Translations under genes and position numbers: made by a program | The notes under the pieces: generated by a model | Databases searched by the model: none | Seen by the model: only the letters and a program-made list of their open reading frames with translations | Told to the model about the DNA's origin: nothing | Part shown: positions 10,840 to 17,138 of the stretch, in pieces | Position numbering within the stretch: the first letter of the stretch is position 1 | How the letters are laid out: each line of letters starts with the position of its first letter | Assembly (NCBI RefSeq): GCF_014863585.1 | Contig: NZ_CP062253.1 | Span: 3,498,501 to 3,562,500 of the forward strand | Direction: 5' to 3' | Length of the DNA: 64,000 nucleotides | Origin: Pseudomonas gozinkensis | GTDB taxonomy: Bacteria; Pseudomonadota; Gammaproteobacteria; Pseudomonadales; Pseudomonadaceae

Positions 10840-10887
10840 CGACGCACTGTAAACTGTCAACTCTGACAGTTTACAGTGCGTCGTTTT
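10840..10887 (+). terminator. 20-bp perfect stem-loop, candidate terminator
   Basis: A perfect 20-bp inverted repeat (10840-10859 and 10864-10883) with the 4-nt loop ACTC, followed by TTTT. It starts 28 bp after the DUF1345 stop codon, so it can serve as its terminator. Its inner part is also a lux-box-like dyad listed separately. The stem has moderate GC content, unusual for a Pseudomonas terminator. Confidence 0.6.
10852..10871 (+). promoter_or_regulatory. LuxR-type box (lux box-like dyad), left
   Basis: ACTGTCA-N4-TGACAGT dyad with the CT-N12-AG spacing of LuxR-family operators. It lies 92 bp upstream of the start at 10963. A TGATAG candidate -10 (10895-10900) lies about 36 bp from the dyad centre, where a class II LuxR-activated promoter would have it. 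The same half sites with the same spacing recur at 17018-17037. Confidence 0.5.
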
Positions 10888-10962
10888 AGCAGTCTGATAG
10901 CTCATCCCGAGGGTAGTCTTTATAAAGCGGGATACTTTGTGATGACTATGGAGACTATTTCG

Positions 10963-11457
10963 ATGAACGCGAAAACACTCAACACCCGACAGGCTGCCCG
11001 AGCTGGAACGTGCGAAGGGATGCTGAATGACACCGAGGAATTCAAGGCAACGCTGGTTGAGCTCACCTCGGAGCAATACGAACCGCCACATGGTAAAGCC
11101 CTTAAAATGTTTGCCCGTCATCGCGACGTACAGCAATCTGCTACGAAAGAAATCACTCTTTCTGTCTCCGAAGGAGCGGCTGACGGCGAGTACGACCTGA
11201 CTTACGAACAGACCGTAGTCAGGTTGACTTATGTTCACAATAAAAGTGAAACGGAGGCTTACATCTATTCACAGGTGGGTGGGAAAGCAAAAGTGGAATT
11301 CAATTCCCAAACCGGCGCCCTAAGCGGTGAGCTGATAAACGCGATTGTTGAGTACAGAGAGGGTGAAACGCCGGTCCAACTGAAAATCAATGTAAAATTC
11401 AATGCGGTCAACGGCCTTGTTTTGTACAGTACCTCCCAGCATAAACGCGTCGCGTGA
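10963..11457 (+). CDS. Small beta-rich protein of unknown function
   Basis: 164 aa, not recognised. There is no signal peptide or membrane segment. The N-terminal 25 residues are polar, and the rest alternates short hydrophobic strands with charged turns (ITLSVSEGA, VVRLTYVHN, ELINAIVEYREG, PVQLKINVKFNA), suggesting a small beta-sandwich or barrel. The ATG at 10963 follows GGAG with a 9-nt spacer; the frame is open further upstream but without a better site. Base composition is lower in GC than the flanking core genes. A lux-box-like dyad lies upstream and a bidirectional terminator downstream, so it is a single-gene unit of the accessory cassette. Confidence 0.65.
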   Translation: MNAKTLNTRQAARAGTCEGMLNDTEEFKATLVELTSEQYEPPHGKALKMFARHRDVQQSATKEITLSVSEGAADGEYDLTYEQTVVRLTYVHNKSETEAYIYSQVGGKAKVEFNSQTGALSGELINAIVEYREGETPVQLKINVKFNAVNGLVLYSTSQHKRVA

Positions 11458-11473
11458 CTACTCGCATAAAGTA

Positions 11474-11503
11474 AAAAAGGAAGCCTCATGGCTTCCTTTT
11501 TTC
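11474..11503. terminator. Bidirectional rho-independent terminator
   Basis: AAAAAAGGAAGCC - TCAT - GGCTTCCTTTTTT stem-loop with A and T tracts on both sides, placed between the convergent small gene (plus strand) and the autotransporter (minus strand). Confidence 0.88.
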
Positions 11504-11521
11504 TGCAATCATTGTCAGCAC

Positions 11522-13765
11522 TTACCAATCATAACGTCCACCGATAGTGACGCCCAATGGCTGTTCGATATTGCGGCCATTGCTGTAATCAAAATCGGCA
11601 TGCACATGAAGATTTTTCGTCAGCGTCATGGCAAGGCCCGTAGCCAACTTCAGTCGTGACCCCGACAGATCATTGTTGAAGACATTGTTGTTGACTTCGA
11701 CCTTATTGTTTTTGGCGAATTCGTGCGCCCAACTGGCGCGCAGATACGGCTGCAGGACTCGGCCGCTTTCCAGTTCAATATTACGACCAATTGTTGCGCC
11801 TGCCTCGCCGATAAAGGAATGCATACGATCGCCTTCAGCTTGCAAGTCGTTATCGAGGGAAAAGTTTTTACCCTGAACCACGGACGCAGACCATTGGGTG
11901 AAAGGCTCGACATACACACCATGGCCAAGCGGTATATGGCGACCTACCTCGATTGATCCACCCATTCCTGTGTTGTCATAGTCACCTTTTGCACGCTTGC
12001 CGTCGCTAAGGCTCACTTTCGCCTCGTTACGAAAACGGTTGGCTTTCAAAACACCATCGAAATAAATGCCGGAAACCGCGTCGAGCCAGGTCGCGTAAGT
12101 GCCCAGATAGTAACTGTCGATCTTTCCTGAAGTTCCGGCATCAAGATCAAGGTCGGATTTGCTGTAACCAGCCATTGCACCCACCAACCACTGGGAGTCG
12201 CCAATTGCAGCATCTGCCCCCAGGGTGAAACCTTGCTGAGTTTGCTTATAACCCACGCCAGAACCATCGGCGACATTGTATCTATTGCCGTAAGTGCGGC
12301 CCCAGGCGCCGGCACGACCGCCATTGAAACGCAATTCCCCCATACGCGTACGCAAGGGTGCGAGTTCTCCGAGCAGAATTGTCGAGGGGGTATTGAACAA
12401 GGCGAGAACTGACCTCGCGCCCGGACTGACCGTTCGAGTGCTTGGGTCAAGGATCCAGTCGTTGCCACTTTTTGCCAAGCCGTAAGCATAAGTACCCAGT
12501 TCGACGTTACGGTCCATGAAGAACTGTGCATCGCCTCCAGCGGTCTGGACGACGCGGATAGGTTGCCCAGCCGCCGGATCAACGCCACTGCTCGCAATCA
12601 ATAACTCGTGCGTCCCACTGGCATTGCCAGTGACGTTCAACAAATCGGTCTGCCCGGTGGCGAAATCAGTGCCCATCACAAACCGACCGTTACCGGACAG
12701 CGAGCCCACGTTCAACTGGTAGAACGCATCGTTGCCGCCGAACACCACTGAGCCACCGTTGTTAAGCGTCAATTGTTCAATGCTGCCATTGCCGACCATG
12801 ACCCAACTCGACGTGTCATTGACGGTAGCGCTGGCGACGTTTTCCAAATGACCTGTCAAGGTGGAATTGTTCTGCAGTGTCAAATGTGTCGTGCTGCCCT
12901 GCTCCGAGACAATGTTGCCTGCCAGTTGGCTGTCGTTGACCAATAGTGAAGTATTCGCTCCGCCCTTTACGTCAAGCAATGTGCCGTTGCCCGCGAGTAA
13001 GCGAGCCCGGGTAAGTGAAACGGTGGCTGTCGAGTCTGACGCATTGGCAAAGTCAACCAAAATGGCCGATCCGGTTTGCCCCTGGACGGTCGTGTTTTCA
13101 AGATTCAGGACCGCGGGTCGGACTTCGTTGGGATCCAGATCGATCACGACACCTTCCTGTCCGCCCACTATCGTGCTACCCGTCGCAGATGCCTGACCGC
13201 TGCGCAATCGAAGCCCGTAACTGGTGACTCCAGTGCCGATCAGTGTTGAGTCGACCAGATCAAGGGTACTGAAAGCACTCACCAGCGCTCCGCCCAGAGC
13301 ACCGCTGATCGTGCTGTTGTTGGCAACCGTGACGTGAGAGCCAATCTGCGTAGTAAAGTCACGAATCGCTTGAAGCCCAATGCGATTGCCAGTGATCGTG
13401 CTGTTATCGATCGTGGCGTCACTGTTGCTCAGAAGAACAGCGGCCAGTCCGCCCGTACCGACAACGGTTGCGCCGTTCAGATTGACCTTGGAACCGTTTC
13501 GCGCGGATATCTGTTGGGTTGTACTGCCAGCGTTGACGTTGAGGATAGAACTGTCAGAGGTGATCTGAAACGTCTGCGCACTATTGACGGTTAAGCTCGC
13601 GCCCTGGCTGAGATCCCAGGATTCCGGGGTACCACCGCTTACGGTTTCGTCCCTACCGACAACCGGGGCTGCGGACACCGATGAAATACACACGGAAAAC
13701 AGCGATGTACTTAATACGGTTCTGAAAAACGGGTTGTTTGAGTTGGTTGTCAATTTCTTCCACAT
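11522..13765 (-). CDS. Autotransporter with pertactin-like passenger and beta-barrel
   Basis: 747-aa type Va secreted surface protein. It has a Sec signal peptide (about 1-32, ending SSVSA). The passenger (about 33-440) is built of repeated short strands with many Asn/Ser/Thr turns (STITG, DSTLIG, NSTLTG), typical of a right-handed beta-helix. A junction and C-terminal 12-strand barrel domain follow (about 480-747: RAGAWGRTYGN, then GGRYDW at the end with a terminal aromatic residue). The ATG at 13765 has AGG 8 nt upstream; a GTG three codons earlier lacks a usable site. No protease motif was noticed in the passenger, so adhesion is more likely than proteolysis. Confidence 0.87.
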   Translation of the reverse strand: MWKKLTTNSNNPFFRTVLSTSLFSVCISSVSAAPVVGRDETVSGGTPESWDLSQGASLTVNSAQTFQITSDSSILNVNAGSTTQQISARNGSKVNLNGATVVGTGGLAAVLLSNSDATIDNSTITGNRIGLQAIRDFTTQIGSHVTVANNSTISGALGGALVSAFSTLDLVDSTLIGTGVTSYGLRLRSGQASATGSTIVGGQEGVVIDLDPNEVRPAVLNLENTTVQGQTGSAILVDFANASDSTATVSLTRARLLAGNGTLLDVKGGANTSLLVNDSQLAGNIVSEQGSTTHLTLQNNSTLTGHLENVASATVNDTSSWVMVGNGSIEQLTLNNGGSVVFGGNDAFYQLNVGSLSGNGRFVMGTDFATGQTDLLNVTGNASGTHELLIASSGVDPAAGQPIRVVQTAGGDAQFFMDRNVELGTYAYGLAKSGNDWILDPSTRTVSPGARSVLALFNTPSTILLGELAPLRTRMGELRFNGGRAGAWGRTYGNRYNVADGSGVGYKQTQQGFTLGADAAIGDSQWLVGAMAGYSKSDLDLDAGTSGKIDSYYLGTYATWLDAVSGIYFDGVLKANRFRNEAKVSLSDGKRAKGDYDNTGMGGSIEVGRHIPLGHGVYVEPFTQWSASVVQGKNFSLDNDLQAEGDRMHSFIGEAGATIGRNIELESGRVLQPYLRASWAHEFAKNNKVEVNNNVFNNDLSGSRLKLATGLAMTLTKNLHVHADFDYSNGRNIEQPLGVTIGGRYDW

Positions 13766-13962
13766 AACTGTCACCTGCTAGATTAACGTTAGTGGCCCTC
13801 CTCACAGGCGGCCGACCAATCGAGGGCTGGCAGACTATCCGGATTGTTCAAATATCTATGTAGGATTAATCTCTATTTACCGACGAATATTCCGCGAGAA
13901 TTTCTCGAAAGGGCGAAAAAAGGCGGCGAGTTTTTTATCCTCACCGCGCGTAGTCGTGATCG

Positions 13963-15975
13963 TTAAGGGTTCGGTACAAACTCTTCGCAGAACCGCCCTT
14001 GGCTGTCATCCAGATCCAGTTCCCGGATGGCCACTACTGAATCAGGCGTAGGGTTGTTGCCTGGCCCACCTCGCGAAATTACATACCAGACATGGCCCAT
14101 TGCCAGGTGTGCGGGTTTGAAATCTTCTTCATAAACACCGATTCCGATTACTGCCCCATCCACGGGATAAGTACCCGTTATTAGATACTTCGTTTCAGCA
14201 TCCGTATCAGTAATAGGCGTTGTCGGATCATCCTTTGGATAGGCAATATATTTCAATGTAATCTCCTCGCCATCCACAGTGAAAGCGTTCGGCAATACAC
14301 GCACCAGCAAATTTCGCCGTGGTGTGCCATCCCCGGGGTTTGTAGCAGTAGGGAAGTTCAGAGTCGCACATCCAATTCTTCGGGCCGGGCCTGCAAGATG
14401 GAGTATCTCCGGCGCGACCATTTGAATCGGAAAGGACTCTACAGGGACATCCTGAGTTCCGGACCTGTTTCGATTGTTACCGTCGGGCACATAGAGTTCA
14501 CAGCGTAGAACGTGTGTCAATCCGCCACCTAGTCTATCCACCACATCCCACGGCAGGTTTTCGGAAATGGTTGTGCCTTCTTGCCCGGTAGTCAAAGGAA
14601 CGGTAGCGAACGTTTCAGAGCCAAAAATAAAATCAAGCAACCAACCCTCTTCTGTCGGTGGAATCGCCGGCATAGCCAAACTGGCTTGTATGCCATTATC
14701 GCCATAATCGGACTCCAGGATTTCGTTGTCACTGCCCGCCGTCGTTTTCAGACTTGGCGCTGGAAGGCTTCCACCGACAATTGATATATCAATATCAATA
14801 TCCACCTTGTCGGTTGCCAGCTCCTTGAGACCGCGAAACATCTTGAAGGCCACCGTCCGCTGAACGATACCGTCTGTGTTTCCATATATCTGCTCTACCA
14901 ACGCAGGCGGTGCATAAAACTTAAGTTCAGTCGCAGTTCCGATTCTCTGTTCAGTTCCGACCTGTACGTTGTGCAGAGTAACGACGATCGTGTCTGCTGC
15001 AGAATTCGGCGTAGGGACTTTAACTACAATCTCGACACCCAACGGATCAAAAAGCATGTCTTCACGATCAATCAGGTTATCGCCACCTACACCATTGGCC
15101 AACGTAACAATTGGCGGCTCTACCGTAGCAGGATCAGGATTGGGTTTATGGGACACTTGGCGTTGGCTGAAATTCGAAGTGCGCGCCACATTACCCGCCG
15201 CATCGGTATTTACATAGATCAACCGATTGGGGCCATCACTCGCATTTACGAAAACATCGGCTGGAATTAAGGCATCCCGGTTAGCAGACAGAGGTTCTTC
15301 AAGAACGGGCGTATCGCGCTTGGGATCGGGCGCTGGTCCAAAAAACCAGGCAAAAACATCATTGGCCAAGAAATTAGGCGCGATAAATGGCTTGACGATA
15401 ATACCGGGTTTGCCTTCGAGATATGTCTCATCGATTGGGTCCGTGGGGCCCAGATCGGCAGGCCAGGTAGGTGCGCCTGGTGTACGGTCAGATGGCGGGG
15501 TCTTGACAACGTTGTAACGCGTCCGGTCGATTGCAAAGGAGCTCTCGATTGACGCAACGTCGTTTGTACCGCCCGCATAAAAAATGTAGCGAAAGAACCA
15601 TTCCGTCGGCTCTTCAGGGGTGGGGTCTTCTTTCAGAAAAGATTGCGCAATTTTAAAGGGTTGAGTCCAGTCTCTATCGGCTACCGGCCCCAATTCTAAA
15701 AACTGGCCAGGAAGAATATCGATCCAGGTAGTGGTGTCTTTTTTACGAATCTGCGGTTGAATTGCGTCGTCGTCATCCTCAAGCAATGGCTGTCCGATCA
15801 TATAATCCAGATCTTTATCAAGATGCTCGATACGAATTCGTTTATCACCCGGAATAGTCTGCGCGGGAAAAGTAGGCGCAGGGGGTGGGTCAGCCAGTAC
15901 GCCATCTGCCCTTTTGGTTTTTGATTGAAGTACCGCTTTCCTCGACAACTTGGCTTTCTCAATTATCGCGTTCAT
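13963..15975 (-). CDS. Large acidic modular protein, unknown function
   Basis: 670 aa, not recognised. No signal peptide or membrane helix. The N-terminus is basic (KAKLSRKAVLQSKTKRA), the remainder acidic and rich in Pro, Asp, Thr and Val. It appears built of several beta-sandwich-like units of about 100-120 residues, each with a strand-rich segment and a motif like VAFKMFRGLKELATDKVDI near residues 385-405. A related motif occurs in the neighbouring 267-aa protein (IYRIFRGARLVGMSKVATL). The ATG at 15975 is preceded by GGAG at 8 nt; the longer open frame starts upstream without a site. Probably co-transcribed with the gene ending at 16130. Confidence 0.6.
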   Translation of the reverse strand: MNAIIEKAKLSRKAVLQSKTKRADGVLADPPPAPTFPAQTIPGDKRIRIEHLDKDLDYMIGQPLLEDDDDAIQPQIRKKDTTTWIDILPGQFLELGPVADRDWTQPFKIAQSFLKEDPTPEEPTEWFFRYIFYAGGTNDVASIESSFAIDRTRYNVVKTPPSDRTPGAPTWPADLGPTDPIDETYLEGKPGIIVKPFIAPNFLANDVFAWFFGPAPDPKRDTPVLEEPLSANRDALIPADVFVNASDGPNRLIYVNTDAAGNVARTSNFSQRQVSHKPNPDPATVEPPIVTLANGVGGDNLIDREDMLFDPLGVEIVVKVPTPNSAADTIVVTLHNVQVGTEQRIGTATELKFYAPPALVEQIYGNTDGIVQRTVAFKMFRGLKELATDKVDIDIDISIVGGSLPAPSLKTTAGSDNEILESDYGDNGIQASLAMPAIPPTEEGWLLDFIFGSETFATVPLTTGQEGTTISENLPWDVVDRLGGGLTHVLRCELYVPDGNNRNRSGTQDVPVESFPIQMVAPEILHLAGPARRIGCATLNFPTATNPGDGTPRRNLLVRVLPNAFTVDGEEITLKYIAYPKDDPTTPITDTDAETKYLITGTYPVDGAVIGIGVYEEDFKPAHLAMGHVWYVISRGGPGNNPTPDSVVAIRELDLDDSQGRFCEEFVPNP

Positions 15976-16129
15976 TTTCATCACTCCATCAGTTATAAAC
16001 ACCGCAACGACCAAAACAACTATCTTGACATCACGACCTTTGGTTCGTTAACCCCTTCCCAGAACAACACATATCTTTCCGAACTAACACACGACTTCGC
16101 CGACCTCGCAAACCTCTTATCAACATTGC

Positions 16130-16933
16130 TCAAGGCCCACAGGGAACCGGATCACCAGCAAGCATCCGACTGATTTTCAAAGTTGCAACTTTCGACATTC
16201 CTACTAACCTCGCGCCGCGAAATATACGATAGATCACTGTGGCGGATGCATTAGCAACCATAGGCTCTATATGAGGAACATACGGGTTAACCGTCAGACT
16301 GTATCCAGTCTTGACGTCTTGATCACTCAAGCTCTGACGAATGTTTTCCCAACGAGTGCGGGGGATTTCAACACTGCCCGAACTTGAAGGGCCATAACCT
16401 CTCCAAGTCACTTCGCACCGATCACCTACTTTAGAACCAGTCAATGCTGGAATAACAAGCCAGATACCCGTCCAGATTGCAGGTTCGGTAAAGCAATGAA
16501 CGGTACCCCAAGGATCGGCATCCCGAAAAGTTACCATTTCCAGATCATCACGTACTGGGGAGTGGTCTATTGTCAGATTTCTGTGATCAGAAAAACTTGG
16601 ATGATCCGCAGTATCATAAACTTCATACCATAGCTTGCCCACGCCATCACTTAACAGATATTTCGGTTCAATATGAATGACAAATTCCGGTTTTATATCC
16701 GCTGGAAGATACTCATTTATAATCACTACAGGTATTTGCCCGACTTGTTCATAACGGACAACGAGTTTGTCTCTATCCCCTGGCTGCGTGGCATAGGAAG
16801 GCCAAAGGGGAACCACCACATCAAGGCCTTGGGGAAGCAACTCACTGGGAACGTGTCCCTCAGGATCCTGTGAATGATCCAGTACCCCGATAACTTGAGG
16901 TGGCTTGAAATTCAGCGGCCCACTGACTGACAT
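16130..16933 (-). CDS. Beta-rich modular protein, unknown function
   Basis: 267 aa, not recognised. It lacks a signal peptide. It reads as two Ig-like beta units: residues about 40-140 and about 150-255, the second ending in IYRIFRGARLVGMSKVATL, which resembles segments of the 670-aa protein encoded downstream. The ATG is preceded by GAGGT at 7 nt. A lux-box-like palindrome lies 85 bp upstream with a CTTAAT candidate -10 at the spacing expected for LuxR activation. The 154-bp gap to the next gene on the same strand shows no obvious terminator, so the two may form an operon. Confidence 0.6.
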   Translation of the reverse strand: MSVSGPLNFKPPQVIGVLDHSQDPEGHVPSELLPQGLDVVVPLWPSYATQPGDRDKLVVRYEQVGQIPVVIINEYLPADIKPEFVIHIEPKYLLSDGVGKLWYEVYDTADHPSFSDHRNLTIDHSPVRDDLEMVTFRDADPWGTVHCFTEPAIWTGIWLVIPALTGSKVGDRCEVTWRGYGPSSSGSVEIPRTRWENIRQSLSDQDVKTGYSLTVNPYVPHIEPMVANASATVIYRIFRGARLVGMSKVATLKISRMLAGDPVPCGP

Positions 16934-17017
16934 TTGAACACCTCTTTCAATCTGAAATTCTGTTCGCTAGTGCCTGTTACTGCTGAACAGATTAAGAGCG
17001 CTTTCATAACTTCCAGC

Positions 17018-17037
17018 TACTGTCAGATCTGACAGGT
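17018..17037 (-). promoter_or_regulatory. LuxR-type box (lux box-like palindrome), right
   Basis: ACTGTCA-GATC-TGACAGG on the plus strand; read with the gene it is ACCTGTCAGATCTGACAGTA. The central 16 bp are a perfect palindrome with CT-N12-AG spacing, matching LuxR/LasR-family sites. It lies 85 bp upstream of the start at 16933. The candidate -10, CTTAAT, is at 16991-16996 on the minus strand. Confidence 0.6.
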
Positions 17038-17124
17038 ATTTCTACCGTCTGTCGGATATGCCTGACTTCACCCCCAAAATCGAAGCCATCTTCACTTGAC
17101 GCGAACGAGGCGCTTAGTGTTTCC

Positions 17125-17138
17125 TGAAACCGGTTTCA
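17125..17138. promoter_or_regulatory. PtxS operator
   Basis: Perfect 14-bp palindrome TGAAACCGGTTTCA, the published PtxS recognition sequence, 20 bp before the ptxS start codon. Implies autorepression of ptxS, relieved by 2-ketogluconate. Confidence 0.9.

Follow-up and report, generated by a model that had tools for sequence, protein, structure and literature searches.

Lux-box-like dyads flanking an autotransporter cassette of Pseudomonas gozinkensis, their genome-wide set, and a candidate LuxR-type regulator

The cassette and its flanking dyads

A stretch of 64,000 nucleotides (nt) from the Pseudomonas gozinkensis genome (contig NZ_CP062253.1, 3.4985-3.5625 Mb), referred to here as the window, contains a four-gene cassette bracketed by two inverted repeats that resemble lux boxes. 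The small gene at one end reads rightward (10963..11457, + strand) and encodes 164 amino acids (aa) with no Pfam family above the cut-off. The other three genes read leftward on the - strand. The first (16130..16933, 267 aa) and the second (13963..16014, 683 aa, with the open reading frame (ORF) taken from the first TTG) matched no Pfam or NCBIfam family; the third (11522..13774) encodes a 750-aa pertactin-type autotransporter with the families PF03797 and PF03212. These three genes probably form one operon. The dyad ACTGTCA-ACTC-TGACAGT (10853..10870, + strand) is the predicted, lux-box-like operator of the rightward small gene, and the dyad ACTGTCA-GATC-TGACAGG (17019..17036, - strand) is the predicted operator of the leftward genes; both predictions were based on the sequence and a genome scan.

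An initial annotation of this DNA had described both dyads with CT-N12-AG spacing, one 92 bp before the ATG at 10963 and the other 85 bp from the first leftward start (16933), and the coordinates, spacing, and distances were all confirmed. It had also placed -10 hexamers about 35 bp from the dyad centres. The hexamer CTTAAT is present (16991..16996, - strand), but it begins at 31 nt from the centre of the 17019 dyad. The hexamer TGATAG (10895-10900) is also present, but it overlaps TCTGAT (10893..10898, + strand), which occupies the offset of 31 nt to the right of the 10853 dyad centre and was assigned from the sequence and the regulon-wide position. With a -10 element at this distance, the sites have the layout of a lux box whose centre is near -42.5. 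They show two features of a lux-box-type operator, namely a dyad of about 16-20 bp with CT-N12-AG and a centre near -42.5, as judged from the -10 elements about 31 nt away at predicted start sites. A search of the window with the 18-mer gave six matches with up to three mismatches, against 1.78 expected (six were reached by 1 of 100 shuffles), and only the 10853 and 17019 dyads were within 0-1 mismatch.

Conservation was analyzed in 149 genomes. Homologues of the 267-aa gene were found in 60 of them (E<=0.001), many being partial matches in longer ORFs. The 30 best-match loci were fetched, and the 25 that include the gene start were counted; L057, L058, L060, L061, and L062, with matches within longer ORFs starting outside the locus, were left out. 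All 25 readable homologues have the dyad upstream (23 exact and 2 with one mismatch), down to a protein identity of 27%, and 21 of the promoters have TAAT at the -10 place. A second conserved element, CCGAC-N3-CGGT (17044..17055, - strand), lies at a fixed distance upstream of the 17019 dyad. In the 25 homologous promoters, CCGA was kept in 25 and CGGT in 23, and the element is possibly a co-activator site. The small gene was found in six of the 149 genomes, and the dyad is kept in every one (exactly in 4, with a single mismatch in 2). Retention upstream of orthologues, on which the initial annotation had made its proposal depend, was observed at both ends of the cassette, always with 0-1 mismatch. 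Order and orientation of the four cassette genes are unchanged in five relatives, which also have a dyad at either end (one mismatch allowed). Both dyads are also present in P. koreensis (NZ_JAOEJU010000001), the sole locus obtained from a scan of named genome contigs.

The surroundings of the cassette are variable. Genome G016 has an additional ORF (L109:9774-10493), transposase-like by eye, between the autotransporter gene and the small gene; in G136 a further gene with its own dyad adjoins the small gene. In G058 (L112) the small gene is broken into two ORFs behind a dyad with a single mismatch, and the neighbouring ptxS is present only as fragments. In G111 no ptxS match was found within the stretch fetched. 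A phage origin of the cassette was rejected, with no near match in the phage collection.

The 17019 site was also considered as an operator of ptxS, and this was rejected. Read by eye towards ptxS, offset 31 is occupied by TGCCTG. The dyad is kept with one mismatch at the 267-aa gene of G111, where the 14.5 kb fetched gave no ptxS match, and also in G058 with its ptxS fragments. A different palindrome, TGAAACCGGTTTCA (17125-17138), lies directly before the ptxS-like LacI gene; it is presumably the own operator of this gene, in a system separate from the lux-box-like site.

The genome-wide operator set and its predicted targets

The genome scan proposed as a check in the initial annotation identified 28 sites of CTGTCA-N4-TGACAG in the single-contig genome of 6,563,527 bases. 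Only 0.32 would be expected from the base composition, and the backward control gave none. Nine of the 28 sites are exactly CTGTCAGATCTGACAG. We chose the target starts by direction, ORF length, start codon, and Shine-Dalgarno score; measured from the dyad centre, the chosen start is 58-121 nt away at 25 of the 28 sites, with a median of 94.5. The likeness to TATAAT peaks at offset 31 from the dyad centre, with a mean of 2.68 of 6 versus 1.40 over all offsets. This peak was reached by 0 of 2000 shuffles, and the opposite-side control has no such peak (746/2000). It was likewise unreached by shuffles after four paralogous promoters had been dropped, leaving 24 of the 28; the same four were dropped from the genome's own set for the upstream-element comparison. 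Over the 149 genomes, there are 1004 motif sites versus 15 for the backward motif. The cassette dyads thus belong to a genome-wide set of 28 putative operators, and the pair is not special to the cassette. No description of a CTGTCA-N4-TGACAG operator turned up in the literature searched by motif spellings.

The dyads might instead be palindromes that arose by chance or were carried by repeats, and some of the sites do share flanks via paralogous genes (L019, L020, L022). However, such an origin is refuted by the counts of found and expected sites; the backward control and the dyads kept upstream of orthologues argue against it as well. We regard it as hardly conceivable.

The 10853 dyad was annotated as a plain operator, a view that has to be amended. 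It is embedded in a perfect 20-bp inverted repeat with a 4-nt loop (10840..10883, arms 10840-10859 and 10864-10883), the outer arms of which covary between species. Instead of an operator, it might mainly be a hairpin, with a role as transcript end or insulator behind the DUF1345 gene. The stem has a z of -9.2 on the + strand. It was also called terminator-like in a consensus scan, which lists it on the minus strand only with the tail ATTGTGTGTT; seven such sites occur in the window, versus 7.0 in shuffles. Seven of the 20 stem pairs are changed on both sides across six sequences, and the covariation score of 0.223 was reached by 0 of 500 shuffles (mean 0.094), with at most 0.150 for slid versions. 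The arms form 14, 13, 12, and 13 pairs outside the 16-mer in four genomes; G058 has 7 such pairs and G111 a single one. However, the dyad core CTGTAAACTGTCA is invariant in sequence in four of the six genomes although the outer arms covary, and G111 retains the dyad (one mismatch) without the stem. By eye, neither the window (which has TTTT) nor the relatives show five consecutive T after the stem on the + strand. There is also a -10-like hexamer at offset 31 in the window, and templated correction of quasi-palindromes could also yield covarying arms. A role mainly as a hairpin is considered unlikely. At least four extra symmetric pairs flank 9 of the 28 sites of this genome.

A Pfam scan of 28 predicted target proteins outside the window left 15 without a family at E<=0.001. 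The families identified include two DUF5122 propellers, two YNCE/lactonase-type propellers (one below the cut-off), Ig-like domains (partly below the cut-off), and a VRP1 protein and an SpvB protein, which are parts of a Tc-toxin-like cluster. Further targets are a maltotetraose-forming amylase, an HMG-CoA reductase, a SET-domain protein, and a NarL-type response regulator. The targets inside the window are the pertactin-type autotransporter and two family-less proteins. The predicted regulon probably consists of surface and host-interaction genes, a label that the HMG-CoA reductase does not fit. A dyad lies 72 nt (centre to start) before the gene of this enzyme (L029:1997-3300), and the ORFs after it resemble mevalonate-pathway genes by eye, unusual company for a surface-protein regulon. 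In L027 and L028 (C1:5132880-5150100), three dyads are clustered with VRP1- and SpvB-type genes and a DUF5122 propeller. Four loci (L016, L019, L020, L022) encode a paralogous family of FPGGTPI/LGGTPI-type proteins with lengths of about 400-600 aa. A separate dyad precedes each of these genes by 91-97 nt (centre to chosen start), as if promoter and gene had been duplicated together.

Candidate regulators

The initial annotation had placed any luxR gene outside the window, and this was borne out. The two PF03472 (LuxR) genes of the genome lie at 2.757 Mb (L011, C1:2757057) and 5.651 Mb (L012, C1:5650890-5651594). The genome gave no match to PF00765 (LuxI), but neither did any control genome in the same search, so that luxI is only tentatively absent. 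The L012 product has the autoinducer-binding and GerE domains of the subgroup A/PpoR-type proteins. By eye, it has the residues W, Y, DP, W, and G expected for a canonical acyl-homoserine lactone (AHL) pocket. The gene is flanked, as in subgroup A, by a ferredoxin-NADP-reductase-like gene (fpr; NF008178 at E 2e-65, below the curated cut-off, and PF00175) and by a methyltransferase gene (PF05175 at E 3e-50, a family match only, where the subgroup A context specifies a 23S rRNA methyltransferase).

Genomes with at least three motifs were classified as motif-rich (80 of 149) and those with fewer as motif-poor (69). All 41 genomes with an L012 match at E<=1e-45 are motif-rich, as are 25 of the 30 with a match between 1e-35 and 1e-45. 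The fraction falls to 5/27 between 1e-25 and 1e-35, and 0/7 between 1e-12 and 1e-25; it is 9/44 beyond this or without a match. An orthologue of L011 was found in 9 of the 149 genomes, 3 of them motif-rich, and L011 was rejected as the regulator. Judged from these sequence matches, only the fpr-flanked L012 of the two autoinducer-domain LuxR genes fits the motif distribution, and it is the one candidate left by the comparison with luxR-type genes that had been suggested initially. Autoregulation of luxR was also rejected: a search of 42 LuxR loci (L011, L012, L063-L102) with up to two mismatches gave one hit, in L098, with two. The L012 LuxR shares 73% identity with its nearest relative and at most 56% with the others among the matches listed. 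In L081, a 35-residue stretch of the reductase is 88.6% identical, although the LuxR has only 37% identity to L012. The L012-type receptor seems to be evolving fast.

The nine motif-rich genomes with no L012 match better than 1e-12 suggest that L012 is not the only regulator. Another family of LuxR solos was found in 13 of the 149 genomes, including all nine of these exceptions; the other four have 0, 0, 1, and 1 motif. At the loci inspected, the neighbours of this second LuxR include an acireductone-dioxygenase gene (PF03079) in L158 and an enolase-phosphatase-like ORF, by eye, in L155. It has no counterpart in the window's genome, where the best match of that query is L012. The spacer of the dyad is often GATC in the window's genome and often GAAA or GAAG in six of the exception genomes, in which 18 of 45 sites were read. 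A third, helix-turn-helix (HTH)-only group was found among the matches listed in 27 genomes (E<=8e-17), all motif-rich and one also in the first group. These ORFs of about 92-158 aa (e.g. in G037, G044, G070, and G140) match the HTH of the second LuxR alone, with 41-67% identity. The HTH-only status was judged from open-frame length and not from protein-by-protein reading; G060, G122, and G030 (29-34% identity, longer ORFs) were excluded, and G067 and G089, with stop codons in the HTH match, were kept. Any of the three LuxR types is present in 76 of the 80 motif-rich genomes versus 4 of the 69 motif-poor ones.

The HTH comparison covered 61 proteins, L012 and 60 fetched ones, out of the 145 genomes that gave a match. 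The recognition helix carries an Arg in 33 of the 36 proteins encoded by motif-rich genomes; the count is 3/8 for genomes with 1-2 motifs and 1/17 for motif-free ones. The distribution is reversed for another Arg a little further on (2/36 in motif-rich versus 16/17 in motif-free genomes). In a tree of these 61 proteins, at least three changes of the motif label are needed, and well-supported branches force two. The dyad might be bound by a regulator of another family, with the LuxR correlation reflecting clade history. The need for only about three changes is in favour of this, and LuxR is the regulator family that was screened across the genomes, apart from the NarL-type gene. However, the lux-box symmetry and the -42.5 geometry point to LuxR, and where one LuxR type is missing from motif-rich genomes, a different LuxR type takes its place. 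A regulator of another family appears quite unlikely.

The NarL-type response regulator (C1:2187286-2187900) is a more specific alternative. This EvgAS/BvgAS-like protein might bind the dyad itself, with the LuxR co-occurrence due to shared ancestry. It has receiver and GerE domains, and its own gene stands behind a dyad (C1:2187164), with about 114 nt from the dyad centre to the chosen ATG. The next ORF is sensor-like with two periplasmic SBP_bac_3 stretches, and the locus ends before any kinase domain. Control of autotransporters and toxins is typical of such systems. Its orthologue (at least 51% identity) was found in 36 of the 149 genomes, all motif-rich, and this number may be too low, since a 48% match in G124 starts 79 bp after a dyad. 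However, 44 of the 80 motif-rich genomes have no orthologue at this identity; the best listed matches there (43-48%) are barely above those of motif-free genomes (43-46%). The nine genomes covered by the second LuxR family are also left unaccounted for, and the position of the gene downstream of a dyad looks like that of a regulon member. Direct binding by this protein is considered improbable; it is probably a target of the regulon and possibly an amplifier.

Taken together, we propose, with a probability of about 0.7, that a LuxR-family dimer activates a genome-wide regulon through these dyads, with L012 as the most likely regulator here and both cassette ends switched on together. The dimer would bind CTGTCA-N4-TGACAG centred near -42.5, beside RNA polymerase, and would activate promoters with a -10 element 31 nt downstream. 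In this genome L012, an fpr-flanked LuxR solo of the PpoR type, would be the most probable regulator. Leftward transcription of the 267-aa gene, the 683-aa gene, and the autotransporter gene would start from the 17019 site and rightward transcription of the small gene from the 10853 site, along with about 26 other sites. L012 would probably bind the dyads, and activation is thought more plausible than repression; the signal may be an AHL from other bacteria, or one of another kind. The sequence data best support the reading of the initial annotation, in which both ends respond to a LuxR-type regulator with its gene elsewhere, but the two ends are part of a genome-wide set and not a cassette-specific pair.

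Several points weigh against this proposal. Binding and expression are predictions drawn from the position and conservation of the sites, the layout of the promoters, and the co-occurrence with LuxR genes. The L012 distribution is imperfect: five genomes with only a 1e-25 to 1e-35 match are motif-rich, and 4 of the 30 genomes matched at 1e-35 to 1e-45 are motif-free. The four second-LuxR genomes with 0-1 motif are similar cases, and G030, G051, G057, and G087 (with the L012-type gene split over two ORFs) are motif-rich genomes left unexplained. The LuxR groups, the cut-offs, and the HTH-only group were drawn after the counts had been seen. The few label changes on the LuxR tree mean that the sample is phylogenetically clustered and the genome counts are not independent. 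L012 itself has Ser at the place of the first recognition-helix Arg, and that Arg occurs in the 3 of 8 proteins from 1-2-motif genomes. No dyad (up to two mismatches) was found at the L012 luxR gene, and the response regulator within the regulon also tracks part of the motif distribution.

Comparison with known systems

The lux, tra, and las boxes share with the present sites a CT-N12-AG dyad, a centre near -42.5, and class II geometry. The present sites differ in their arms (CTGTCA/TGACAG) and in the extra upstream CCGAC-N3-CGGT at the 267-aa gene promoters. The EvgAS/BvgAS-type systems control autotransporters and surface proteins, and one such response regulator occurs in the present regulon; its distribution falls short of the whole motif range. 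A wider hypothesis, which we hold to have even chances, is an old, single-operator surface and host-interaction regulon across Pseudomonas. The receptor would have been swapped among PpoR-type, PsaR1-like, and HTH-only LuxR proteins, and lost with the operators elsewhere.

The second LuxR family adjoins methionine-salvage genes, as does the LuxR solo PsaR1 of P. syringae pv. actinidiae (PMC3909224). In PMC10134790, an enolase-phosphatase gene is placed next to psaR1. The link of the second family to PsaR1 is one of gene context only, and this PsaR1-like family, unlike L012, has no member in the window's genome. The target genes of PsaR1 were left for future study, according to the portions covered of its paper (PMC3909224).

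The PpoR/subgroup A LuxR solos have the same domains and reductase/methyltransferase context as L012 (PMC8546723, PMC2703642), and the fpr/methyltransferase context of subgroup A and PpoR is likewise described in PMC8546723 and PMC10134790. Subgroup-A-like relatives with the recognition helix QSTVNFHIR are often found in motif-free genomes of the present set; motif-linked members differ at this place. We assume that P. putida and P. plecoglossicida belong with these motif-free genomes. The P. putida PpoR binds 3-oxo-C6-HSL, according to PMC10134790 and PMC11543582. Putative direct or indirect targets were listed in a microarray study of this protein (PMC2703642), and PplR of P. plecoglossicida was studied by RNA-seq (PMC11543582); no operator is given in the portions covered of these two papers. 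In the parts covered of Bez 2021 (PMC8546723), there is no direct evidence for gene targets of Ppu16R, the member tested, and subgroup A is described as the most widespread among P. fluorescens species, with an unknown molecular response mechanism. A defined operator, with 28 predicted sites here and 1004 in the 149 genomes, offers a direct target list for such orphan LuxR receptors. If the proposal is true, orphan quorum receptors would be linked to surface proteins, Tc-toxin-like genes, and an autotransporter cassette. The regulon with swapped receptors, if real, would supply the regulon so far missing for the orphan quorum receptor that is most widespread in fluorescent pseudomonads.

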